Source: Microbulbifer guangxiensis (GTDB taxonomy: Bacteria > Pseudomonadota > Gammaproteobacteria > Pseudomonadales > Cellvibrionaceae). Taken from it: DNA of 64,000 nucleotides. The stretch lies in NCBI RefSeq assembly GCF_021729075.1, contig NZ_JAJSAQ010000001.1, positions 195,997 to 259,996 of the forward strand. The letters run 5' to 3'. Below the pieces are notes generated by a model. The model was given only the letters and a program-made list of their open reading frames with translations, made no database searches and had not been told where the DNA came from. Shown piece after piece: positions 50,374 through 63,644 of the stretch (the stretch's first letter is position 1; each line of letters starts with the position of its first letter). A program made the position numbers and the translations under genes.

Positions 50374-51420
50374 TTAGCAGATCCGTGGAAGCTGTTCACC
50401 GGGGAGCCGCTCCAGGAGGCGTTCGCAGCCCAGCGTATTTTCAATGATGACCCTGCCTCTGTCCCTGGGGGCGACAGCATTCACCCTGCCAATGACACAG
50501 GCCTCCCTGGAAACAGGGTGCGCTGCCAGCAGATTCAGGGCCGAATCCACCTCCGCGGCGGGAACGAACGCGATAAACCGCCCTTCATTTGCCGCGTATA
50601 GGGCGTCGAGCCCCAGTAATTCGCAGGCGCCCTGGACCGATTCACTGATGGGGATGTGGTCCTCGCTTATCCAGAACTCAAGCCCGGCAGTTTCCGCGAG
50701 TTCAACCATTGCCGTCGCCAGTCCGCCCCGGGTCAGGTCCCGCAGGCAGTGGACATCGATCCCGTTGTTCAACAGTGCCTGTACGGGCTGATGCAGTGGC
50801 GCGCAATCACTGGCAAGGGGAAACCCGAATTCGAGTCCCTCGCGTTGCGCCATGACGGCGATCCCGTGTCTGCCAATGTCCCCAGACAGCAGGATGGCGT
50901 CGCCGACCTCGATCGCCTGCGGTGTGATGGTCTGCAGGCTTTCCACGAGACCAATACCGGCGGTATTGATGTAGAGACCATCCCCCTTCCCTCGCTCGAC
51001 GACTTTCGTATCGCCGGTAACCAGCTGCACACCAGTTGCAGTCGCCGCCCGGCCCATGGAAGCCATGACCTGCTGCAGGATGTCCATTTCCAGGCCTTCC
51101 TCGAGTATCAGGCTGCAACTGAGGTAAAGCGGCCTGGCGCCGCTCATGGCGAGATCATTGACGGTGCCAAACACGGCCAGTTCGCCAATATCACCGCCGG
51201 GAAAAAACAGAGGGGTTATCACAAAGGAGTCGGTGGTGAAGGCGATCTGCGTGTTACCAATTGGCAGGGCAGCGCTGTCGTGTCCCTGCTGTAGCCAGGC
51301 ATTGTCGATATGGGGCAGGACAAATTGTCGCAGCAGTCGCTGGGTCAGCTCCCCGCCACTACCGTGACCCAAGCGAATCGTTTGCTCCGTGGCAATCGGC
51401 AAAGGACAGTCAGTATTCAT
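50374..51420 (-). CDS. hypE: Hydrogenase maturation protein HypE
   Basis: A 348-residue ATP-dependent dehydratase that turns the carbamoyl group on its C-terminal Cys into thiocyanate for the cyanide ligands of the [NiFe] site. It starts MNTDCPLPIATEQTIRLGHGSGGEL, carries the PurM-like ATP region DSFVITPLFFPGGDIGELAVFGTVNDLAMSGA, and ends in PRIC, the modified Cys. GGAGTACGG lies upstream of ATG 51420, which overlaps the end of hypD. Last gene of the hydrogenase operon. Confidence 0.95.
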   Translation of the reverse strand: MNTDCPLPIATEQTIRLGHGSGGELTQRLLRQFVLPHIDNAWLQQGHDSAALPIGNTQIAFTTDSFVITPLFFPGGDIGELAVFGTVNDLAMSGARPLYLSCSLILEEGLEMDILQQVMASMGRAATATGVQLVTGDTKVVERGKGDGLYINTAGIGLVESLQTITPQAIEVGDAILLSGDIGRHGIAVMAQREGLEFGFPLASDCAPLHQPVQALLNNGIDVHCLRDLTRGGLATAMVELAETAGLEFWISEDHIPISESVQGACELLGLDALYAANEGRFIAFVPAAEVDSALNLLAAHPVSREACVIGRVNAVAPRDRGRVIIENTLGCERLLERLPGEQLPRIC

Positions 51421-52513
51421 CGGCCGTACTCCGTTTGCGGTAGCGGTAATAGGCGGCGCAGGCACCCTCGGATGACACCATTGGTGCTCCCAGCGGGTGT
51501 TCCGGGCGACAGCGTTTGCCAAAGTGTGGACAGTCGTGCGGTTTTTTCAGTCCCTGCATGATGGCGCCGCTGAGGCATCCGGAATTGTCACTTTCGGGGC
51601 GCGACTCTATGGAGAATCTCTTGCGGGCATCAAGTGCGGAAAAGGCCGGGCGCAGCGTCAGTCCGCTGAAGGGGATGGGCCCTACTCCGCGCCAGGTCTG
51701 GGCGCTGATCTCGAATACCTCTTCGAGCCTGGCGCGGGCTTGCGGATTGCCCTCCGCTTTGACGGCGCGGGCATACCGGTTTTCAACCCGGTGCTCGCCC
51801 TGCTCCAGCTGGCGAACACACGCGAGTATCCCGTCAAGGATGTCCAGGGGCTCGAACCCGGTGACGACGATCGGCACGCAGTGGCTCCTGGAAAGCTCAT
51901 GATAATTGTCGTAACCGGTAATGCTGCAGACGTGCCCTGCAGCCAGAAAAGCCTGGATGCGTGATTTAGGAGAGGCGCAGATGGCCTCGATGGCCGGTGG
52001 TACCAAAAAGTGAGATACCAGTATCGAAAAGTTGGCCAGTCCACGCTCCCTCGCCAGGCATGCGGTGAGCGCATGGGCCGGCGCGGTGGTTTCGAAGCCG
52101 ATGGCGAACAATACGACCTCGCGGTCCGGGTTTTGTTCGGCGACGTCCAGCGCATGCAGTGGGGAATAGAGTGTGCGGATATCCCCACCTGCTGCCTTCA
52201 CTGCCAGCAGGTCCTGACTGGAGCCTGGCACCCGCAGCATATCGCCGAAAGAACAGAAAATGACGTCCTTCCGTGAAGCCAGTGAGATCGCGAGATCCAT
52301 GGTTTCCAGCGAGGTAACACACACCGGGCAGCCCGGGCCGTGGATCAGTTCCAGGCTTTCCGGTAGCAGTTGCTGCAGGCCGTATTTCATGATCGCGTGT
52401 GTCTGGCCGCCGCATATTTCCATAATCCGCCAGGGTTTTGTGGCGGTTCTCTGAATCTCGCCGGCGAGCTGGCGGATGCTCTGTTTCTGCCGGTATTCGT
52501 CGATGTACCTCAC
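51410..52513 (-). CDS. hypD: Hydrogenase maturation protein HypD
   Basis: A 367-residue scaffold on which the Fe(CN)2CO group is built. Conserved Cys motifs: EICGGQTHAI, HGPGCPVCVTS, and the [4Fe-4S] ligands in the C-terminal part (SGCLSGAIMQGLKKPHDCPHF, then GKRCRPEHPLGAPMVSSEGAC). The GTG start at 52513 overlaps the hypC stop by GTGA. The frame is open well upstream, but that part is shadow coding of hypC. Confidence 0.95.
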   Translation of the reverse strand: MRYIDEYRQKQSIRQLAGEIQRTATKPWRIMEICGGQTHAIMKYGLQQLLPESLELIHGPGCPVCVTSLETMDLAISLASRKDVIFCSFGDMLRVPGSSQDLLAVKAAGGDIRTLYSPLHALDVAEQNPDREVVLFAIGFETTAPAHALTACLARERGLANFSILVSHFLVPPAIEAICASPKSRIQAFLAAGHVCSITGYDNYHELSRSHCVPIVVTGFEPLDILDGILACVRQLEQGEHRVENRYARAVKAEGNPQARARLEEVFEISAQTWRGVGPIPFSGLTLRPAFSALDARKRFSIESRPESDNSGCLSGAIMQGLKKPHDCPHFGKRCRPEHPLGAPMVSSEGACAAYYRYRKRSTADEY

Positions 52514-52764
52514 CCTTCCTCCTCCGCCGGATTCCCGTTGCTTGCCAGCCGTTCGAGTTCGAGGAATACCCGCTGCGCCTCCTGCTCGTGAAGCTTGCTG
52601 ATCGCAAAGCCGACATGCACGATGACGTAATCCCCCACCTCCGCATCTGGCACATAGGCCAGGTTCACCTCGCGGCGGATGCCGCCAAAGCTGACGATAC
52701 CGCTTCGTTCCAGCGGCAACTCGTTGAGCAGCTCTTCGATCTGCCCGGGCACGCCTAGACACAC
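52510..52764 (-). CDS. hypC: Hydrogenase maturation chaperone HypC
   Basis: An 84-residue chaperone starting MCLGVPGQIEELL. Cys2, exposed after Met removal, binds the iron group made with HypD and carries it to the large subunit. The stretch GDYVIVHVGFAISKLHEQEA is typical. It overlaps hypF by 10 bases and hypD by GTGA. Confidence 0.95.
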   Translation of the reverse strand: MCLGVPGQIEELLNELPLERSGIVSFGGIRREVNLAYVPDAEVGDYVIVHVGFAISKLHEQEAQRVFLELERLASNGNPAEEEG

Positions 52765-55091
52765 TGCGCGTTGCCCTCCTCCGACCGGCTTGTTGCAATA
52801 GACATGATGCGGGCGTAGTAAATCTGGCCCAGCGCGATACCGCCATCATTGGGGGGCACCCGGCTCTGCAGGTAAACGGTAAACCCATCGGCTTCGAGTG
52901 CCGTAGCGGCGGACTCAGCCAGGATGCGGTTCTGAAATACCCCGCCGGACAGGAATACATGTTTGCAATGACTGCGCTTCGCCAGGCTCAGGATCATCTG
53001 CACCAGGGTATTATGGAAAGTGCGGGCGATGTCATTGGTGGAGGTCTGGTGCCTGATGTCCGTCAGCAATGCCGCCAGCATTGGCTCCCAGTCCAGTATC
53101 CACTCCTCATTTTCCAGAGTAAGCCGGTAGGAATAGCGCGACGACCTGCCGGAGCACTGGGCAGCAAACTCCACGGCCATGGCGGCCTGCCCCTCGAAGG
53201 AGTTTTCTTTTGCGAGGCCAAGCAGGCCTGCAACTGCATCGAAAAGCCGGCCGGCACTGGAGCATTCCGGGCTGTTGATCCCGCGTTCCAGCATGCGTGT
53301 CAGTACCGGAATCTGCTGTTGCGTAAACAGTGCCCGCAGAGCCGGTTGAGAGAACGCCTGCTGCCGCATTGCTGTGTAGAGCAAGCCTGCGGCGCTGCGC
53401 CGTGGCTCCCTGATTGCCTGCTCTGCGCCGGGCAGAGGGAACGGCCGGAATCCGCCGAGCCGTCTGAGCCCGTTGCCGCCATCCCAGGTCATGAACTCGC
53501 TGCCGCGCAGTATGCCTCCCTCTCCATAGCCACTGCCATCCCAGCAGATGCCCAGCGCCCTGCCCCGAAACCCATGCTCTGCCATGGCCGAGAAGAAATG
53601 GGCTACATGGTGCTGCACAGGCGTTTGCGGTAGCCCCTGTGCGGTGGCCCAGCGGGTAGACGCATAGCCCGGGTGTCGATCTGTGAGGATGTGCTTGATG
53701 TCCAGGTCATTGAACCTGCTGATGTCTCGAATCGTGCTCTCGAACAGGGATCTGGACCGGCGCTCACCGAGGTCGCCGATATGCTGGCTGCAGTAGACCG
53801 TGTTGCCCCGACAGACGGCGACGGCATTTTTCAGGTCCGCCCCCACCGCCAGCAGGTCACCGTTCTCTTGCGCGCTTCCTGGCAGGGCCAGCTCCAGGGG
53901 CAGCGGCGCAAATCCCCGCGCACGCCGCAGCAGTACCATCTGCCCACGCATGATCCGGGCAACCGAGTCATCGAGTGGGCGCAGGACCGGCCTGTCGTGC
54001 ACCAGGAACAGGTCGGCGATAGCGCCAAGGCGAGCCAGAGCCTCGTCGTTATCGATGCAGATGGGCTCGCCGGCCCGATTGCCGCTGGTGGCAACAACGG
54101 GAACTCCTAGCCTGTCCATCAACAGGTAATGAAGAGGCGAACAGGGCAGCATCACGCCGAGGTTGGGGTTGCCCGGCGCCACTTGCGCGGCAATTTGGCG
54201 GCTTGCATGTGCCCGCGCCTGCAACAGGACGATGGGGCGGGCTTGGCTGGCGAGAAGTTGCCGCTCCGGCTCGGAAAGGTGGCAATCCTTCCGCACCCCG
54301 GACAGATCCGCGTACAGCAGCGCAAATGGCTTATCAGGCCGCTGTTTGCGCTGCCGCAATCTGGCCACTGTGTTGGCATCCCCGGCACGGCAGAGAAGCT
54401 GGAAACCGCCGACGCTTTTCATGGCCACGATGGCGCCGCCGGCGAGCGCGTCTGATGCTGTCATCAGTGCGCTCTGGCCAGCGTCCTGGACATTTCCGTC
54501 GCTGTCCATGAGCTGAAGCTGCGGGCCACAGGTTGGGCAGGCATTGGGTTCGGCGTGAAAGCGACGATTCTGCGGATCCCCGTATTCCCGCTCGCACTCC
54601 GGGCACAGCGGGAACCCCCGCATAGCGGTATGAATGCGATCGTAGGGCAGTCTTTCGACAATGCTGTATCTCGGGCCACAGCTGGTGCAATTGGTGAACG
54701 GGTAACCATAGCGGCGGTTGCCCGGGTCGAAGATTTCCCGCAGGCACTGTGCGCAGGGCGCAAGATCTGGCAGCAGGGTCGCGGTGTTGGGACCGTTTCG
54801 CTCGCTTTCGCGAATCGTGAAACCGGTGTCTTTTCCTGCCTTGCTGTACTCGAGGGGCTGTACCTGCAGGGAAGTGATCTGTGCCAGTCCAGGCTTCTCG
54901 TCATCAAGCCGGCGCAGAAAGCGGCGCAGTGATGAACGCGCCCCCTGCGCCTCGATCCGGACACCCCGGCTGTGGTTGGCGACCCAGCCACTGAGTTCGC
55001 ACTGGTGGGCCAGGCGCAGGACGAACGGGCGAAAGCCCACGCCCTGCACCAGCCCTGTGACCTCGAATCCCCACCGTTCAGGCTGGGTCAT
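52755..55091 (-). CDS. hypF: Carbamoyltransferase HypF
   Basis: A 778-residue enzyme that makes the cyanide-ligand precursor from carbamoyl phosphate and passes it to HypE. In order: acylphosphatase domain (GLVQGVGFRPFVLRLA), four zinc-finger Cys pairs (CAQC, NCTSCGPR, CPEC, ACPTCGPQ), the YrdC-like domain (AIVAMKSVGGFQLLCRAGD), and the Kae1-like domain (HHVAHFFSAMAEHG, with SGGVFQN near the end). ATG 55091 gives the usual start; the open frame beyond it is hypA shadow. It overlaps hypA and hypC. Confidence 0.96.
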   Translation of the reverse strand: MTQPERWGFEVTGLVQGVGFRPFVLRLAHQCELSGWVANHSRGVRIEAQGARSSLRRFLRRLDDEKPGLAQITSLQVQPLEYSKAGKDTGFTIRESERNGPNTATLLPDLAPCAQCLREIFDPGNRRYGYPFTNCTSCGPRYSIVERLPYDRIHTAMRGFPLCPECEREYGDPQNRRFHAEPNACPTCGPQLQLMDSDGNVQDAGQSALMTASDALAGGAIVAMKSVGGFQLLCRAGDANTVARLRQRKQRPDKPFALLYADLSGVRKDCHLSEPERQLLASQARPIVLLQARAHASRQIAAQVAPGNPNLGVMLPCSPLHYLLMDRLGVPVVATSGNRAGEPICIDNDEALARLGAIADLFLVHDRPVLRPLDDSVARIMRGQMVLLRRARGFAPLPLELALPGSAQENGDLLAVGADLKNAVAVCRGNTVYCSQHIGDLGERRSRSLFESTIRDISRFNDLDIKHILTDRHPGYASTRWATAQGLPQTPVQHHVAHFFSAMAEHGFRGRALGICWDGSGYGEGGILRGSEFMTWDGGNGLRRLGGFRPFPLPGAEQAIREPRRSAAGLLYTAMRQQAFSQPALRALFTQQQIPVLTRMLERGINSPECSSAGRLFDAVAGLLGLAKENSFEGQAAMAVEFAAQCSGRSSRYSYRLTLENEEWILDWEPMLAALLTDIRHQTSTNDIARTFHNTLVQMILSLAKRSHCKHVFLSGGVFQNRILAESAATALEADGFTVYLQSRVPPNDGGIALGQIYYARIMSIATSRSEEGNAQCV

Positions 55092-55350
55092 TGCGGTCGA
55101 ATACCAGGCTCTCGAGAATGATGTCCTGGGCGAACGGGTGATTGATGTCCGCCAGCTCCTGAATCTCCAGTCGTAACCCTTCCAGGGGAGTGCCTGCGGT
55201 AGCGTGGTCGAAGTGCTCCTGCAGGTGCTCTGCAGAAATATGGGCGAGCGCACCGAGCCGGAGTTTGGCCGTGGTCAGGCGGCCAGTTTCCCTGGCCGCG
55301 AGTTCATGGATTTTTGTGACCAGATCGTTGATCAGGGATTGCTCGTGCAT
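55078..55350 (-). CDS. hypA: HypA homologue lacking the zinc domain
   Basis: A 90-residue protein starting [11 protein letters not shown], which keeps the N-terminal Met-His-Glu nickel-binding group, and LRLGALAHISAEHLQEHFDHATAGTP, typical of HypA. The family's two CxxC zinc motifs are absent: after LRLEIQ the chain goes to ELADINHPFAQDIILESLVF and ends, with no Cys at all. A normal HypA has about 113 residues. It may be a variant nickel chaperone, or may work with a protein from elsewhere. Overlaps the protease gene and hypF. Confidence 0.85.
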   Translation of the reverse strand: MHEQSLINDLVTKIHELAARETGRLTTAKLRLGALAHISAEHLQEHFDHATAGTPLEGLRLEIQELADINHPFAQDIILESLVFDRNDPA

Positions 55351-55813
55351 GGGGGCCGGCCTCCGTTGCAATTTGAATCAGTATTTTCTGAACCAGCTTT
55401 TCTGCCGCCGCCCGGACCGCCGGGCTGATTGGAGCGCCAGTACTGAACTCTCGGCCACAGACAGCATAGACAGTGAGTTTCTCCGGCAGGGCGTCGAGAA
55501 GCCGGGACAGTTCTAGGGCCTCTCCGAGGTTGAGGCCATGACTCGATGTCATGCAGAGGCTGGGCGGGATCGTTTCCTTCAGCCCATCCAGGCACAGCAG
55601 GGATCCGGGTTCGTGCCGGTCGCTCTGCAGTGCATCGACCAGGATGACCTGTCGGTGCCGCCAGTCTTCCACCAGCTGTGGCATGTCGCCGCCGTTTTCA
55701 ATGCAGGCAGGCGGTTCTCCGGGTTTTGCCCTCAGGCGGTCGACCACATAGGGGCCGACAGCGTCATCGCCGCGAAAGCGGTTGCCGAGACTGATAATGG
55801 TCCAGTCTGTCAT
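55304..55813 (-). CDS. [NiFe] hydrogenase maturation protease
   Basis: A 169-residue endopeptidase of the HyaD/HybD/HupD family (M52). It shows [21 protein letters not shown] with the nickel-ligand Asp region, ILVDALQSD, and [17 protein letters not shown] with the His ligand. It cuts the C-terminal tail of the large subunit once nickel is in place. It overlaps the large-subunit gene by ATGA and hypA by about 45 bases. Confidence 0.94.
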
Positions 55814-57129
55814 GGCAAAGCCCTCCCGCTTCTCTGCAGGTCGACTTTCAGGAAGTGCGTGGCGCAGGAAATACAGGGGTCATAGTTGCGAATGGCCTGT
55901 TCGCACCGGGCCTGCAGCTGTTCCGGCGGCAAGTGCAGCAACTTCGGCAGCATCAGCCGAAGATCGTCCTCGATGGTTTTCTGGTTCTGGGAGGTTGGGG
56001 GGACGATCCTGGCATCGCTAATCTTGCCCTGCTCATCCAGGCTGTAGCGATGGTAGAGCAGGCCCCGGGGCGCTTCTGTGGCGGCAAATCCGGTTGCTGC
56101 CCTGGGTGTTGTCGTGAGATAGGGAGCATCCGGTGCGCGATAGCGGTCGATGATTCCGATCGCTTCATCGAACGCGTGCAGGACTTCGATGCTGCGTACA
56201 ACGATGCTCTGGAACGGGTTGGCGCAGAACGGGGGGAAGCCAACCTCCTCAGCAACCTGCCGTGCCAGTGGTGAAAGCCTGGAGTAATTGAGGTTGTAGC
56301 GCGCCATCGGACCCACCAGGTAGGCGCCACGCTCCCGGATCCTGCTTTGCAGGGCATTGGTGTAAGGAACCTGTTCCTCCTGGAAGTGGCAATCATATTC
56401 CCGGGCGGAGATGTCCAGTCCGTGAGTGGAGGTGATGCGCCCCTCGTTCATTGGGTATTCGTCGGGATGCGTCAGGGCTACGAATTCGTATCGTTCACAG
56501 TCATCCCGTTCGAATTTCGGGTGCGGGAGAGACGCTGCCCAGCGCACCATGTCCTCAGCCTGCGCCCTCCCCTTCAATAACTGATCCCGCAGGCTCAGCA
56601 ATTGCTTGTAGGTCGGAACACGGTAAAACCCACCGATGCGAACATTGATCGGATGGACTTCGCGACCACCCAGAAGCGCGACGATGGTATTGCCGGCTTT
56701 CTTGATTTCGAGTCCAGCCTTCACCACCTGGGGGTGGTCGCGGGCCATTTCCACCGCACTGTGATAACCAAGAAAGTCCGGTGCGTGCAGCATGTAGATA
56801 TGCAGGACATGGCTTTCAATCCATTCGCCGCAATACATGAGCCGCCGAAGGGCGCGTAGTTGCGGACTCGGCTGCAGGCCGAGCGCGTCCTCCATCGCAT
56901 GCAGGGCGCTCATCTGGTAAGCCACGGGACAGATGCCACAGATTCTCGCCGTGATGTCAGGCGCCTCAGTGAAGTCCCTGCCACGCAGGAAGGCCTCGAA
57001 GAACCTGGGCGGCTCGAAAATCTTCAGTTTGACATCATGTACACCACCATCGTCATAACGGACATAGAGGGCGCCCTCACCTTCCACCCGGGCCAGGTAG
57101 TCGACCTTGATGGTTTTACTTCTGGTCAT
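55810..57129 (-). CDS. hydA: Group 3b [NiFe] hydrogenase large (alpha) subunit
   Basis: A 439-residue catalytic subunit. Nickel-site ligands are C64 and C67 in RICGICP and C419 and C422 in DPCISCATH. Processing after H425 would remove the last 14 residues. The sequence [18 protein letters not shown] and the order of the operon point to the NADP-linked group 3b (sulfhydrogenase) class. ATG 57129 has GGAGAG just upstream and overlaps the small-subunit gene; longer frames are not needed. Confidence 0.95.
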
Positions 57130-57922
57130 CGCCGCTCTCCTGCCCTGCCTCGCCTGCCAGGCGTCGGCTCTCATGTGCAAAGGCAGGGGCCTCTGCATTG
57201 AAGTTGCGCAGGTTCTCGATCACCGTCGCTTGTTCTGCCCCCAGCTCTTCCTGCCACCAGTGCACGAGCGAGCCGGTGTTGGGGTTTTCCTTTGGCCCGT
57301 AGCAGCCGTAACACCCCCGGTCATAACTCGGGCAGATTGCTCCGCAACCGGCGTGGGTGATGGGGCCCATGCAGGGGGTGCCGTGAGCCACCCAGACACA
57401 GACATTGCCGCGCAACTTGCACTCGATGCAGACAGAGTGCGCCGGCACCTGTGGGGGACGTCGATGGAGAAAGGAACTGATGACCTCCAGCAGTTGATGT
57501 TTGTTGATCGGGCATCCCTGCAGCTCGAAGTCCACTGTCACATGGGCACTGATCGGGGTGGAAGTCGCCAGAGTGGCGATGTATTGCGGCTCGGCATAGA
57601 CGATCGCGGCAAAATCCTCCACATCGGAAAAATTACGCAGCGCCTGGACCCCGCCAGCCGTGGCGCAGGCGCCGATGGTGATCAGGGCCCGGGACTGACG
57701 TCGAACCTCTACGATACGGTCCCTGTCATGCGCAGTGGTAATGGAGCCCTCAACCAGCGACAGGTCGTAGGGTCCCTCCACTTCACGGCTGGATGCCTCT
57801 TTGAAGTAGGCGATGTCTACGATGTCGGCCAGCTCCAGCAATTCATCTTCGCAGTCCAGCAGGCTCAGTTGGCAGCCATCGCAGGAAGCAAATTTCCACA
57901 CTGCCAATTTTGCCCTGTCCAT
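57116..57922 (-). CDS. hydD: Group 3b [NiFe] hydrogenase small (delta) subunit
   Basis: A 268-residue Fe-S subunit. Proximal cluster ligands lie in [22 protein letters not shown] and [10 protein letters not shown]. Further clusters are bound by [29 protein letters not shown] and RGCYGCYGP. It carries electrons between the nickel site and the FAD subunit. No Tat signal is present, so the enzyme is cytoplasmic. Start ATG 57922; overlaps the large-subunit gene. Confidence 0.95.
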
Positions 57923-57948: not shown

Positions 57949-58764
57949 CTAAAGTGCGTGAATCCCGAGCCAGTTTTGGACGTCTGCAAAGCAGAACACC
58001 GGGCCATTTTTGCAGACGAAATTCGGACCCCACTGGCAGTGGCCGCACAGCCCGGTGCCACACTTCATATTGCGCTCCATAGAGATATAGATTGCGCTCG
58101 CCGGCATACCCCTCTCCAATAGCATCTGGATGGAGAAGCGCATCATGGCTTCGGGACCGCAGAGAAATGCCACGGCGTTGTGGGCATCGAAGTCGGCCCT
58201 CTTGAGTGGTGTGGTGATGACGCCTACCTCCCCGCTCCATGCAGAATCGCCGTGATCCACCGTCGTTATCACCGGCATCTCGTGACTCCAGGCCTGCAGT
58301 TCTGTGCCGTATAGCATCTCACCGGGGCGGCGGGCACCATAGAACAGGCGGAAGTTGGGGATCGCCCGCGGCCGGGGTTGGTGCAACAGGTGGTAAATAA
58401 CCGGCCGAAGCGGCGCCAACCCCAGCCCTCCGGCAATCAGCAACAGCTCCCTGCCCTTCGCTTCAGGCAGGGGCCAGCCATTGCCGAAGGGGCCGCGCAC
58501 GCCGAGCTGCTCGCCTTCCTGCAAGCGCGCGAGGGCCGCGGTCACCAGTCCCCGGGTTCTGATGGTATGGACGGTGGTGCCCTCCAGCTGTTGGGGGCGG
58601 CCGCTCATGGAAATGGCCACTTCGCCGGCACCGAAGGCGTAGAGCATGTTGAACTGCCCCGGACTGAATGCCGGTGCGGGCTGCTCAATGGCAGTGAGGT
58701 GCAGGGTGAAAGCGCCGGGATACTCCTCGGTGCGGCGGTCCACGCGAAAAGGCCGGGGCGTCAC
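57949..58764 (-). CDS. hydG: Hydrogenase FAD/NAD(P)-binding (gamma) subunit
   Basis: A 271-residue ferredoxin-NADP reductase-like subunit. FAD is bound in [25 protein letters not shown](P) in [21 protein letters not shown] and [12 protein letters not shown] [2Fe-2S] cluster is bound by [11 protein letters not shown] and the later Cys in [10 protein letters not shown]. Links the hydrogenase to NADP(H). GTG start overlapping the preceding gene by GTGA; the small subunit follows after 26 nt. Confidence 0.95.
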
Positions 58765-59243
58765 GGAGCTGCCGTCCCCGCCGAAGGCTTGTCGCCGTAT
58801 AGGTCGAGCAGTTGTATGCGCGCCTCCCGCAGCCGCTCGGTGGTGATGCGCGCAAAACGTTTCATCAGCTCAAAGCCAAGGGCAGGCTCCGTCTCACACT
58901 TTTCCCGCAGGCATTTGCCGTTCAGGCGAATGCCGTGCACCTTCTCCAGCGCTCGCGCATCGAAAGTCCACCGGTAAGGTGGAAACAGCCAGGACCAGCC
59001 GAAGATTTCGCCCCCGCTGATGGTTTGCAGGCAGAGAGCGCCGTGATTGGGGACAAAGGTCTCGACGGCAACCCTGCCGGCCCGGATCAGGAAGAAGTCA
59101 TCTGCAGGTGCCCCTTCGCGAGCAAGGTAGTCTCCCGGCTGGTAGATGCAGTTCTCCCCGCAGCCGGCAATGAACTCCTGATGCTCCCGGGGCAGGTCCT
59201 GGAAGAACGGATGTTGTTGCAAGAGCTCCGCGATCGTCTTCAT
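58761..59243 (-). CDS. Cyclic nucleotide-binding-domain protein of the hydrogenase operon
   Basis: A 160-residue single CAP_ED domain (IYQPGDYLAREGAPADDFFLIRAGRVAVE, then ISGGEIFGWSWLFPPYRW) with no DNA-binding helix-turn-helix. The position of the sugar-phosphate motif is altered, so cyclic nucleotide binding is unsure. Similar proteins (HoxI-like) accompany group 3 hydrogenases and act as accessory subunits. It overlaps both neighbours, supporting a subunit role. Confidence 0.9.
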   Translation of the reverse strand: MKTIAELLQQHPFFQDLPREHQEFIAGCGENCIYQPGDYLAREGAPADDFFLIRAGRVAVETFVPNHGALCLQTISGGEIFGWSWLFPPYRWTFDARALEKVHGIRLNGKCLREKCETEPALGFELMKRFARITTERLREARIQLLDLYGDKPSAGTAAP

Positions 59244-60364
59244 GACGGCTCTTCGAGCTCACGGATACGCGCGACCTGCTCGGTCAGGTCGATCCCTACC
59301 GGGCACCAGCTGATGCACCGGCCGCAACCGACACATCCAGATGAGTCGAACTGGTCGAACCATGAAGCCAGCTTGTGTGTCATCCACTGACGATAACGTG
59401 AGCGCGTGTCGGCGCGCACCGGGCCGCCGCTGATATAACTGAAGTCCCTGGTAAAGCAGGAGTCCCAACGTTCACGCCTTTCAGCGGTCTCACCACTCAA
59501 GTCCGTGCTGTCTTCGACGGTTGAGCAGAAGCAGGTCGGGCACACCATGGTGCAATTGGCGCAGGAGAGGCAGCGCTCCGCGACTTCATCCCAGGCTGGG
59601 CTGTCCAGATTGCGGTACAGCAGTTCCTTCAGGTCGCCACTGTCGAATTGGCGGCTTCCCGATTCCATCTCCTTTGCTGCCCGGTCGACCGCGGCCTCGG
59701 CTAACTGTAGCTGCCGGGCTGTTGCGGGCTTGACCGGTAGGCTGTTGAGAATCTGTCCCCCCCGATAGGAATCACTGCCAATCAGGAAATAATGTTCCTG
59801 GCCGTCGATGACTTCCGTCAGCGCCAGGTCACTCTCCAGCGTAACCCTGGGGCCTGTCTGCATGGAGGTACAGAAGCAGGTTTCCGCTGGCGCGGTACAA
59901 TTGACGGCTACGGTCAGGATGTTTGCCCGCCGGTTCAGGTAACTGTCGTTGCGATAGTGATCATCGATGAAGATGCGGTCCTGGATTGCGATTGCGTGAA
60001 GCTCACAGCTGCGCACGCCGAGGAAGGCCACTGCGGGGGCTTCGTCCACGATCTCCGTCATGCGGATACCGTGATCGGTTCGTTGCGCCTTCCAGACCGG
60101 CCGGGTAGGCAGTTGAAGAAATTGTTTCCAGGAGTGTGGCCCGGCCGCGTAGCCGAAATAGGCCCCGTCGGTACGGCGTTTCAGTCGATAGTGTCCCCTG
60201 TCCTGCTCGTCAGTCCAGCCGCGGGGTAAGTCACTGGCGCAGGCGACAGGACCGTAGGTAATGGCCTGGTCCTGTACTACCGGACCGAGAACCTCGTAGC
60301 CCTGCGCCCGGATCGCCTGTATCAGCGAATCCAGGTCGTCTGCCTGTAGTACGAAGTTGTACAT
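59240..60364 (-). CDS. hydB: Hydrogenase Fe-S (beta) subunit
   Basis: A 374-residue sulfhydrogenase beta-like protein. The N-terminal half carries the family region VAFLGVRSCELHAIAIQDRIF. Two cluster motifs lie in the C-terminal half: CLSCANCTMVCPTCFC and CVGCGRCISWCPVGIDL. ATG 60364 is used (AGGG about 9 nt upstream); the frame is open to 60523. First gene of the operon. In Pyrococcus this subunit contributes to the electron path and was linked to sulfur reduction. Confidence 0.93.
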   Translation of the reverse strand: MYNFVLQADDLDSLIQAIRAQGYEVLGPVVQDQAITYGPVACASDLPRGWTDEQDRGHYRLKRRTDGAYFGYAAGPHSWKQFLQLPTRPVWKAQRTDHGIRMTEIVDEAPAVAFLGVRSCELHAIAIQDRIFIDDHYRNDSYLNRRANILTVAVNCTAPAETCFCTSMQTGPRVTLESDLALTEVIDGQEHYFLIGSDSYRGGQILNSLPVKPATARQLQLAEAAVDRAAKEMESGSRQFDSGDLKELLYRNLDSPAWDEVAERCLSCANCTMVCPTCFCSTVEDSTDLSGETAERRERWDSCFTRDFSYISGGPVRADTRSRYRQWMTHKLASWFDQFDSSGCVGCGRCISWCPVGIDLTEQVARIRELEEPS

Positions 60365-60495
60365 GATTGGACGCCCTGCCGGCTGAGTTTTACGCGTCAA
60401 TGAACAGGCCTGGTTGGGTGGTTGCAAGCAGAGCCTTCTATTATTGAGGCAGATTGTAGAAAGCGGCTGGCCGCTGTGAGAGGAGACTGGCGACA
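60365..60495. promoter_or_regulatory. Divergent promoter region of the hydrogenase operon and the GNAT gene
   Basis: A 131-base gap that must hold the promoter for the 11-gene hydrogenase operon. I looked for an FNR/ANR box (TTGAT-N4-ATCAA) and found only poor partial matches, so the control signal is not visible to me. Confidence 0.4.
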
Positions 60496-61044: not shown

Positions 61045-61229
61045 GACCCACCGGTGGAATAGCCGCTCGCAAGCCATTGTGTAGCAGTCTGGATTTCCCC
61101 TCCGGAAACCCCCTGTCCCCAGAGGGCGGCCGGTCTACAGTCCCTCGGACGTCAGCGACAGCCCATTTTGGCAAGCCGCCATTCGCCTGCCAGTCCGTCT
61201 CCCCCGTCTGATCCCAGGCAGTGAGCAAG

Positions 61230-63644
61230 ATGTCCGAACAACGACACTACATACGATGGTTTGAAGAAACGACCCTGCAGGATATCGCTGCTGTGGGAGG
61301 CAAGGCTGCCTCGCTCGGCGAGATATACCAGGCGCTGACCCCGCAGGGCATCCGGATCCCCAACGGTTTCTGTGTAACCGCCGATGCCTATCGGGCAGTC
61401 CTTGATGAGGCAAAGCTGTGGGAAAAGCTCAGGACCCTGCTATCGAATGATCCCCCCAAAGACGCCCCGGTGGCAGCAGAAGTCGCCGCACAGGCCCGGG
61501 CGCTGGTCTACGGGGCGGGACTCCCGACTGCCGTTGAAGAGCAGATTACGCAGGCCTATCAGCAACTCTGTGGTGAATATGGTGATGGACTGCGGGTCGC
61601 GGTTCGCAGCTCTGCCACCGCGGAGGATCTACCCTCGGCCAGTTTTGCCGGCCAGCACGAAAGCTTTCTGAATATTGGCGACCTGGATGGTCTGCTCGAT
61701 GCTTGTCGCCATTGCTTTGCCTCGCTCTTCACAGAGCGGGCCATCAGCTACCGGGAGCGCAACGGTTTCGACCACTTCAGCGTGTACCTGGCGGTGGTGG
61801 TGATGAAGATGGTGCGGGCGGATCGAGCCTCGAGTGGAGTCATGTTTACGCTGGATACGGACACCGGCTTTCGCGATGTGGTGTTTATCAACTCGGCCTA
61901 TGGCCTTGGAGAGAATATTGTCCAGGGGACCGTTGATCCAGACGAGTTCTATGTCCACAAGCCCACGTTCGCAGAAGGGCATCGGTGTGTGTTGCGCCGC
62001 CATCTGGGAGCAAAACAACAGACACTCACCTGTGACGAAAACCCTAACAGCCAGGAATTGCAGAACCTGGACACCCCCGTGGAGCGCAGTCAGCGATTCA
62101 GCCTCAGCGATGATGAGGTGCTGCTTTTGGCGGATTACGCGTTGAAGACTGAAGCCCACTTCCGCCGCCTTCGCGGCCAAGAGTGCCCTATGGATATTGA
62201 GTGGGCCAAGGATGGCGAGGACAACCAGCTCTACGTATTACAGGCGCGTCCGGAGACGGTTGCTTCCCAGAAGCCACGCAATCAGCTGAAGCGGTACCAC
62301 TTTACAGAAAAGCCGGATAAAACCGCTCTTCTCGCCTCCGGGCGCGCAATCGGCACCGGTATCGCCAGTGGGAAGGTTCGGCGAGTCGATAATGCTGCCG
62401 GCCTGACGGACTTCCGTGATGGCGAAGTGCTGTACGCAGAGAGCACCAGTCCTGATTGGGGGCCGGCGATGCGGCGTGCAAGTGCTCTGGTTACGGAACG
62501 GGGTGGGCGTACCTGCCACGCGGCGATTGTGGCGCGGGAATTCGGCATCCCGGCGGTAGTGGGTATCGGTAATGCTGGAGGAGCATTGCAGAACGGCGAG
62601 TTTGTGACCGTCACCTGTGCTGAAGGGGATATCGGCAGGGTATTCGGGGGTGAGATTCCTTTTGAAGCCAGCACCATCGCGCTCGATGATGTGCCGCGGA
62701 CCAGGACCAGAATGATGATCAACCTCGGCAGCCCGGACCAGGCCTTTCGGCTGAGTGCCCTGCCCTGCGATGGCGTGGGATTGGCGCGGATGGAGTTTAT
62801 CGTCAACGAGTACATCAAAGCCCACCCGATGGCACTCGCGCACCCCGAGCAGGTCGACGACCCGGATGCGCAGGCGGCACTCGCCACACTCACCAGCCAC
62901 CACAAATCTGGCGCCGACTTCTTTATCGAAAAGCTCTCCGAGGGTATCGGTACCATCGCTGCTGCCTTCTACCCGCACCCGGTGATTGTGCGAACCTCGG
63001 ATTTCAAGACCAACGAATACGCGCGCCTGATTGGCGGCAGCGGCTTCGAGCCCCACGAGGAGAATCCGATGCTGGGTTTCCGCGGGGCGTCCCGCTACGC
63101 CCATGAAGCCTACGCCGATGGCTTTGCGCTGGAATGCATGGCCCTGAAACGGGCCCGGGAGGAGATGGGGCTCAGTAACATCAAGGTGATGATTCCCTTC
63201 TGCCGCAGGGTTTCTGAAGGGAAACAGGTCGTGCAGACGATGAGGGCACATGGACTCGCAGCGGGTGAAAATGAGCTTGAGATCTACGTGATGTGTGAAA
63301 TTCCCAATAACGTCGTGCAGATCGATGCCTTCAGCCAGGTTTTTGATGGCATTTCCATTGGCTCCAATGATTTGACCCAGCTGGTTCTCGGCGTAGACCG
63401 GGATTCGGACATTGTGGCTTTTGATTTTGATGAGCGGGATGCCGGGGTCATGGAAATGATGAAGCAGGCAATTGAAGGTGCTCACCGCAACGGCATTCCC
63501 GCTGGTATCTGCGGCGAAGCTCCATCCAATTATCCGGAAGTGGCGGAGTTCCTGGTGCGACAGGGGATCGACTCCATCAGCCTCAGTCCGGATGCGCTCC
63601 TGAAGACCCTTGAGCGGGTGTCGGCTCTGGAGCGGGGGCTGTGA
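61230..63644 (+). CDS. ppsA: Phosphoenolpyruvate synthase
   Basis: An 804-residue enzyme that makes phosphoenolpyruvate from pyruvate and ATP for gluconeogenesis. The ATP-grasp domain has VAVRSSATAEDLPSASFAGQ and DRASSGVMFTLDTDTGF. The phosphohistidine domain has TERGGRTCHAAIVARE. The PEP/pyruvate TIM-barrel domain has VRTSDFKTNEYARLIGG and FDGISIGSNDLTQLVLGVDRDS. ATG 61230 is preferred, with GTG 61221 as the alternative. A terminator follows. Confidence 0.96.
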   Translation: MSEQRHYIRWFEETTLQDIAAVGGKAASLGEIYQALTPQGIRIPNGFCVTADAYRAVLDEAKLWEKLRTLLSNDPPKDAPVAAEVAAQARALVYGAGLPTAVEEQITQAYQQLCGEYGDGLRVAVRSSATAEDLPSASFAGQHESFLNIGDLDGLLDACRHCFASLFTERAISYRERNGFDHFSVYLAVVVMKMVRADRASSGVMFTLDTDTGFRDVVFINSAYGLGENIVQGTVDPDEFYVHKPTFAEGHRCVLRRHLGAKQQTLTCDENPNSQELQNLDTPVERSQRFSLSDDEVLLLADYALKTEAHFRRLRGQECPMDIEWAKDGEDNQLYVLQARPETVASQKPRNQLKRYHFTEKPDKTALLASGRAIGTGIASGKVRRVDNAAGLTDFRDGEVLYAESTSPDWGPAMRRASALVTERGGRTCHAAIVAREFGIPAVVGIGNAGGALQNGEFVTVTCAEGDIGRVFGGEIPFEASTIALDDVPRTRTRMMINLGSPDQAFRLSALPCDGVGLARMEFIVNEYIKAHPMALAHPEQVDDPDAQAALATLTSHHKSGADFFIEKLSEGIGTIAAAFYPHPVIVRTSDFKTNEYARLIGGSGFEPHEENPMLGFRGASRYAHEAYADGFALECMALKRAREEMGLSNIKVMIPFCRRVSEGKQVVQTMRAHGLAAGENELEIYVMCEIPNNVVQIDAFSQVFDGISIGSNDLTQLVLGVDRDSDIVAFDFDERDAGVMEMMKQAIEGAHRNGIPAGICGEAPSNYPEVAEFLVRQGIDSISLSPDALLKTLERVSALERGL

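Follow-up and report, generated by a model that had tools for sequence, protein, structure and literature searches.

A HypA protein without a zinc domain in a HypB-less [NiFe]-hydrogenase operon of Microbulbifer guangxiensis and its recurrence across phyla

The genetic organization of a [NiFe]-hydrogenase operon was evaluated in a stretch of 64,000 nucleotides from Microbulbifer guangxiensis (contig NZ_JAJSAQ010000001.1, positions 195,997 to 259,996; hereafter the window). The operon has the order hydB, the gene of a cyclic nucleoside monophosphate (cNMP)-binding protein, hydG, hydD, hydA, protease, hypA, hypF, hypC, hypD and hypE. The hypA product has 90 residues, begins with MHE, lacks the zinc domain and contains no cysteine in its translated open reading frame. 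The partner gene hypB is absent. The zinc domain and HypB are missing together in many phyla, and this joint absence is accompanied by a signature of three histidines in the short HypA and by a single clade of the hydrogenase large subunit HydA.

A preliminary description of the window had reported a HypA without zinc motifs, in which the zinc domain was missing entirely and the nickel site was kept. The first two statements were borne out. PF01155 matched the protein with 42.2 bits (cut-off 28.9) but covered only positions 1–67 of the 112 in the profile. TIGR00100, the NCBIfam hypA equivalog, gave 28.5 bits, which was under its cut-off of 88.1, and the members of the short family had matches in NCBIfam 20.0 to classical hypA models only. 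The statement on the nickel site held for the MHE motif but not for the acidic residue corresponding to D40 of Helicobacter pylori HypA, a likely nickel ligand (PMC5557546), which is replaced by serine. A frameshift near position 55090 might have hidden the zinc domain. However, the start of the gene is overlapped by the protease gene (55304–55813), its stop is overlapped over 14 bp by the start of hypF (55091), no CxxC motif occurred in three frames over 54900–55350, and an equal length was found in relatives. Hence the frame is intact, and a frameshift or a lost start was ruled out.

The genome (3.65 Mb, 9 contigs, 100% complete) was searched for the missing components. The sole PF01155 match was the short hypA gene, and TIGR00073, the profile of HypB, had no match at E ≤ 0.001. 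PF02492 had two matches, neither HypB nor UreG, in frames that we take to be Ffh and Era. According to these three profiles, the genome contains neither hypB nor ureG, and no second hypA. The lack of hypB that had been described for the operon thus extends to the whole genome, and no complete hypAB pair was found elsewhere by profile search.

The forms of HypA and the presence of HypB were compared in 145 related genomes, including that of M. guangxiensis, and in a class sample of 369 genomes. PF01155 matched in 48 of the 145 relatives, of which 32 had the short form only, 14 had the full-length form and two (G073 and G105) had weak matches to the zinc part only and were dropped from the counts. 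In the 32 short relatives the match ended at profile positions 65–68 of 112, and for part of them the label "short" denotes this profile coverage and not an inspected sequence. Thirty of them belong to Microbulbifer, M. guangxiensis included, and the others are G092 and G110. HypB scored above the TIGR00073 cut-off in exactly the 14 relatives with full-length HypA. The class sample contained six further short-only genomes (G365, G254, G404, G370, G393 and G293), none of which had HypB. HypB was present in all 40 genomes of a first full-length batch and in 27 of the 33 of a second batch picked for hydrogenase, two genomes being shared. Including G197, the full-length class genomes had HypB in 66 of 72 cases, a count that comprises the two tested batches and G197 and not every full-length genome of the class. 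The short match on contig C85 of G197 was cut by the contig end; this genome has full-length HypA with HypB and was counted accordingly. G333, whose match on C291 lay at a contig edge, was dropped because its HypA form was unclassed (no HypB). Also dropped were five genomes with hydrogenase but no HypA match, three without HypB (G350, G305 and G441) and two with HypB (G353 and G375).

The comparison was extended to 50 whole genomes with short HypA from across the phyla. These were drawn from the 76 loci of the scan described below after the exclusion of 16 Microbulbifer loci, four from genomes tested earlier, a second locus of one tested genome and five others. HypB exceeded the cut-off in only two of them (G545 and G523), both of which carry a second, full-length HypA directly adjoining HypB. 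The 48 short-only genomes that remained include G557 and G559, in which the short copy is broken. In total, HypB was found in 0 of 86 short-only genomes (32 + 6 + 48), in 80 of 86 with only the full-length form (14 + 72) and in 2 of 2 with both, although the short-only genomes cannot be counted as 86 independent events, since 30 come from one genus. Moreover, a HypB query matched at none of 95 short-HypA loci (76 + 19), whereas it matched at all four control loci (L146–L149) with 43–100% identity. In one short-HypA genome, G042, a second weak PF01155 match was observed (C1:4753483–4753680, profile 39–103, open frame of 118 residues), which may represent a stand-alone zinc-ribbon protein or a chance match.

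Named genomes were scanned with the short-HypA alignment, and 76 loci were obtained. The scan pattern demanded two of the histidines and left the absence of cysteines free. The loci belong to Microbulbifer, other Proteobacteria, relatives of Nitrospina, Planctomycetota, Opitutales, Pelagicoccus, Acidobacteriota, Sulfidibacter, Zixibacteria, Omnitrophota, Armatimonadetes, KSB1, Anaerolineales, Solirubrobacterales, Myxococcales, Leptospiraceae, Brocadia and others. No CxxC motif, two of which form the classical zinc site, was found at any of the 76. A survey of HypA length in other group 3b operons had been proposed in the preliminary description, and intact copies of 82–95 residues were found at 74 of the 76 loci, from many phyla. 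The broken copies were those of Candidatus Jettenia ecosi (L219) and of a metagenome-assembled genome (MAG) of Sericytochromatia (L226). These two copies are what a sequencing error or a pseudogene would predict, but the 74 intact copies make such an explanation of the short HypA extremely improbable, and for the family as a whole it is already refuted.

The cassette around the short hypA was traced by tblastn with the genes of the window. Matches were found for hydA at 71 of the 76 loci, the protease at 72, hypF at 62, hypC at 60, hypD at 61 and hypE at 58, and the gaps arise in part because contig ends cut many loci. The cNMP-binding gene, located between hydB and hydG in the window (58761–59243), was matched at 65 loci; it had no match in the HypB-less hyd loci with full-length HypA (L133–L138). 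Genes inserted before hypA (L084, L086 and L089) or before hypD (L091 and L092) differ from one another, and no HypB-like gene was noticed when these five inserts were inspected by eye; a HypB-replacing gene inserted beside hypA was rejected on these grounds. The gene order is not universal because hypE stands upstream of hydB, and not downstream of hypA, at L175, L201 and L219 (Planctomycetes GWA2_39_15, Brocadiaceae and Jettenia); in two of these hypD stands there as well. The cassette occurs in two copies in the gammaproteobacterial MAG G254 (L086 and L087), and the second copy ends within hypD at a contig end.

The structure of the short HypA was predicted with AlphaFold2 on 75 sequences, with a predicted local distance difference test (pLDDT) value of 88.8. 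The predicted order of elements was helix 2–20, strand 24–32, helix 40–51, strand 60–65 and strand 77–85. The best fold match was the solved HypA structure 3a43_B (Z 12.5, root-mean-square deviation 2.2), with all 90 residues aligned against chain positions 1–139. Seven HypA entries had Z values of 10.7–12.5 and one had 9.0, whereas the first unrelated entry had 6.8. Since the last strand (77–85) is kept and the whole length aligns with 3a43, the model indicates that the zinc domain was excised from within the nickel domain, after the third and before the last strand, and not lost from the end. In alignment A3, which holds 75 short HypAs without the broken L219 and L226, H2 was invariant and M1 and E3 were conserved in at least 90%.

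Histidines occurred at P0001 positions 37, 42 and 46 in 15, 16 and 16 of 16 short HypAs, respectively, whereas the corresponding numbers among 50 full-length proteins were 1, 0 and 0. The 16 short sequences had been collected before the scan via Pfam and not via the histidine motif. According to the alignment, H37 stands two residues ahead of the D40-equivalent position, and H42 and H46 lie on the next helix. This position (39) was serine in 15 of the 16 short HypAs and threonine in one. Among full-length HypAs, an acidic residue was found here in 40 of 44 proteins from genomes with HypB but in only 1 of 6 from HypB-less genomes. These counts suggest, for a small and related sample, that loss of the acid accompanies loss of HypB in both forms of HypA.

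A HydA tree of 88 proteins was inferred under LG+G4 with a quick search, after removal of 25 identical and 16 Microbulbifer rows. Seven rows had full-length HypA without HypB scoring. The 62 short-HypA rows and four others formed one branch, with a Shimodaira–Hasegawa-like approximate likelihood ratio test (SH-aLRT) value of 96, and the label "short" required 3 changes on the tree against 22.7 in shuffles. The four other rows represent two lineages, L107/L108 and L109/L112. In the HydA of this clade, 12 diagnostic columns carried a residue present in at least 90% inside and at most 15% of 20 outside enzymes, whose HypA was full-length or unknown; for example, H117 occurred in 62 of 62 against 3 of 20. 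Most of the 12 columns are retained in the four inside rows. A change in the L1 motif of the large subunit peculiar to the short-HypA group was ruled out, as RICG[IL]CP.AY is common to enzymes with full-length HypA.

The features of the operon are listed in Table 1. The HydA of the window is extended at its C-terminus and has both nickel cysteine pairs, in the motifs RICGIC and DPCISC. The best NCBIfam matches of the subunits were the sulfhydrogenase alpha, beta and delta models and a cytochrome-c3 hydrogenase gamma model, all under their equivalog or subfamily cut-offs. Both cysteine pairs and sulfhydrogenase-type beta, gamma and delta subunits, as looked for in group 3b, were present, and the enzyme is taken to be of this group, a name that also follows PMC7285500. 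Histidine-rich stretches of the nickel-storage kind were absent from the other operon proteins of the window, with a maximum of 3 histidines per 12 residues. A phosphoenolpyruvate synthase-like gene lies near the operon (window positions 61221–63644). Such a gene was also seen near 7 of the 76 short-HypA loci within the stretches examined (L196, where it is only 23% identical, L200, L211, L214, L224, L226 and L227) and near two loci with full-length HypA (L147 and L149).

Table 1. Genes of the hydrogenase operon in the window, with the profile or other evidence for each.
Feature	Position	Strand	Evidence
hypE (start approximate)	50374..51420	-	TIGR02124, 430.5 bits
hypD (start approximate)	51410..52513	-	TIGR00075, 478.3 bits
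hypC	52510..52764	-	TIGR00074, 75.2 bits
hypF carbamoyltransferase	52755..55091	-	TIGR00143, 769.8 bits
Short HypA, 90 aa, no zinc domain, H37/H42/H46 signature	55078..55350	-	PF01155, AlphaFold2, alignment
Hydrogenase maturation protease	55304..55813	-	TIGR00072, 88.6 bits, above cut-off; overlaps hypA start
Group 3b-type large subunit, HydA/ShyA-like (start approximate)	55810..57129	-	NF040828, 252.6 bits, under equivalog cut-off 700
Hydrogenase delta (small) subunit (start approximate)	57116..57910	-	NF040831, 163.1 bits, under cut-off
Hydrogenase gamma (FAD/NAD) subunit	57949..58764	-	NF006220, 174.8 bits, under cut-off
Cyclic-nucleotide-binding-domain protein	58761..59243	-	PF00027, 47.3 bits
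Hydrogenase beta (Fe-S) subunit (start approximate)	59240..60370	-	NF040833, 136.4 bits, under cut-off

The short protein may be a functional HypA that consists of a single domain and specifically serves one clade of group 3b [NiFe]-hydrogenases, the maturation of which proceeds without HypB; a probability of about 0.5 was assigned to this reading. The preliminary description had proposed that nickel follows a different route to this enzyme. That proposal is supported by the co-absence of the zinc domain and HypB, which recurs across phyla as it predicted, and the route itself is one that we infer. In the classical system of Thermococcus kodakarensis, residue His98 of HypA is presumably located in the zinc domain. 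This residue shifts towards the N-terminus and helps to form a nanomolar nickel site (PMC7055735). In the textbook cycle, as described in PMC12134894 and PMC7055735, HypB bound to nucleoside triphosphate (NTP) docks to HypA and reshapes it, which creates the nanomolar site, and NTP hydrolysis then releases loaded HypA to the large subunit. In the short HypA, the zinc domain would have been removed from its place between strand three of the nickel domain and the final strand, and the missing ligand may be supplied inside this domain by H37, together with H42 and H46 on the following helix. Because the zinc domain and HypB are both lost and new histidines stand near the old acid, the economical reading is that the nickel domain completes its own site without a partner. 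Such a site would be preformed, and no nucleoside triphosphatase (NTPase) would be needed for its assembly or for nickel release. HydA could then receive its nickel when the nickel domain docks directly onto it, in the manner of the HyhL–HypA complex, and the protease of the cassette would next cleave the C-terminal extension of HydA. Of this scheme, the binding of nickel, its coordination by the new histidines, the docking and the independence from an NTPase are putative. It is proposed tentatively, at somewhat lower odds than the reading of a dedicated, HypB-free clade, that in many phyla the one-domain HypA takes up nickel at a preformed, histidine-rich site and delivers it without help.

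Several alternatives were weighed against this NTPase-free insertion. A housekeeping NTPase, such as an Mrp/ApbC-type ATPase or a MinD-like protein, might replace HypB as the partner of the short HypA. An archaeal HypB is said to be akin to the Mrp/MinD family. The M. guangxiensis genome encodes one full-length Mrp-type ATPase and has three weaker PF10609 matches, but ATPases of the Mrp type occurred in 14 of 14 control genomes, so that their presence is uninformative, and no such gene was noticed within the cassette. Furthermore, the short HypA would lack His98 if this residue lies in the zinc domain as presumed above. His98 is brought to the nickel site in the HypAB complex (PMC7055735). Although some archaeal HypB homologues hydrolyse ATP (PMC12134894), replacement by a housekeeping NTPase was considered unlikely. 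UreG has been proposed in place of HypB for Nitrosococcus oceani AFC132 (PMC7285500) and could act where it is present. UreG-like TIGR00073 matches of about 65–88 bits, under the cut-off, were found in 23 of the 86 short-only genomes (9 of 32, 3 of 6 and 11 of 48). The other 63, that of M. guangxiensis among them, had none, and the PF02492 matches of M. guangxiensis are confined to the Ffh- and Era-like frames. With matches in only 23 of 86, UreG was rejected as a general substitute, and its involvement is very improbable.

It is also conceivable that the short HypA carries no nickel and only aids the docking or folding of HydA, the metal coming from the cell pool in a nickel-rich habitat. High nickel bypasses HypAB in the laboratory (PMC12134894), and the M. 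guangxiensis genome had no match to a NicO-type permease, the one nickel transporter family searched. However, the conservation of MHE and of the three new histidines indicates a metal site under selection, and a mere docking aid appears improbable. Alternatively, HydA or the protease could use the three histidines as an interface or a structural site outside the nickel site, with HypB independence arising from another change. The diagnostic residues of the clade HydA are consistent with such an interface. Nevertheless, the position of H37, two residues before the D40 equivalent, makes its closeness to the nickel site likely, and an interface role remains a doubtful account.

The possible interface role of H37, H42 and H46 is one of several points that speak against a partner-free short HypA. 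In addition, the H. pylori HypA variants C74A, C74D, C91A and C94A retain only 9–15% of hydrogenase activity (PMC5557546), so that in this organism the loss of the zinc site is detrimental. Six gammaproteobacterial genomes without HypB (G164, G311, G418, G165, G312 and G177) retain full-length HypA; hence HypB can be lost without the zinc domain, and no strict one-to-one rule holds. Finally, G227 and G230, one from each of the two inside lineages of the HydA clade, have full-length HypA and HypB elsewhere in the genome. No hyp genes follow the protease at L140 and L142, the one locus per lineage that reaches far enough, the contigs of L107 and L141 being too short for judgement. A HydA of the short-HypA clade may therefore accept classical HypAB. 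The simplest reading of the tree would be one origin of the short HypA followed by two returns to classical HypAB.

Compared with classical HypA/HybF (PF01155 and TIGR00100; structures 3a43, 2kdx and 6g81), the short HypA shares the MHE N-terminus, the alpha/beta nickel-domain fold over its whole length and the place beside the large subunit in a hyp operon. It differs in the lack of the CxxC zinc domain, the lack of HypB in the genome (tested as gene presence), the serine or threonine in place of aspartate or glutamate at the nickel-ligand position and the three added histidines. Complex structures of Thermococcus HypA with an ATPase-type HypB (5yxy and 5yy0) were among the fold matches of the short HypA; that system differs in its zinc domain and NTPase partner, and the movement of His98 is what completes its site (PMC7055735). 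The six HypB-less genomes with full-length HypA represent three gammaproteobacterial families (G164, G311 and G418; G165 and G312; G177) and have a group 3b-type HydA. They resemble the short-HypA system in maturation without HypB and, in five of six, in the lack of the acidic nickel-ligand residue, but they keep the zinc domain and lack H42 and H46. Their hyp genes (loci L133–L139) are divergent from hyd, in the order A-F-C-D-E in three loci and C-A-D-F-E in two.

The absence of HypB itself is partly known. Some group 3b hypAFCDE clusters without hypB, like that of N. oceani AFC132, have been described, with UreG suggested as the substitute, and those listed in the section concerned are from N. 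oceani AFC132, Nitrospina gracilis, Marinobacter, Sorangium and Luminiphilus; in Rhodothermus marinus, hypB is located apart from the cluster (PMC7285500). These clusters are probably of the same type as that of M. guangxiensis, being group 3b with hypA-F-C-D-E and no hypB, and relatives of Nitrospina were among our scan loci. The likeness concerns the described gene content. The description differs in that the hyp genes come first in the order and UreG is favoured, and the zinc domain is unmentioned in the section on these clusters (PMC7285500). According to a passage of PMC7055735, every HypA protein has a zinc site. No earlier report of a zinc-less HypA was found in the open-licence literature of PubMed Central (PMC), subscription papers being outside the scope of the search. 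The loss of the zinc domain, the histidine signature and the genome-wide HypB rule thus appear to be new.

These results suggest that nickel reaches this hydrogenase by a simpler route than that of the textbook. If the proposed mechanism is true, neither HypB nor the zinc domain would be needed, and the maturation set would be smaller than the textbook one, consisting of the short HypA, HypF, HypC, HypD, HypE and the protease. A cross-phylum group without the zinc domain or the GTPase represents a natural experiment on the roles of both. Moreover, such a compact maturation set could ease the heterologous production of [NiFe]-hydrogenases.

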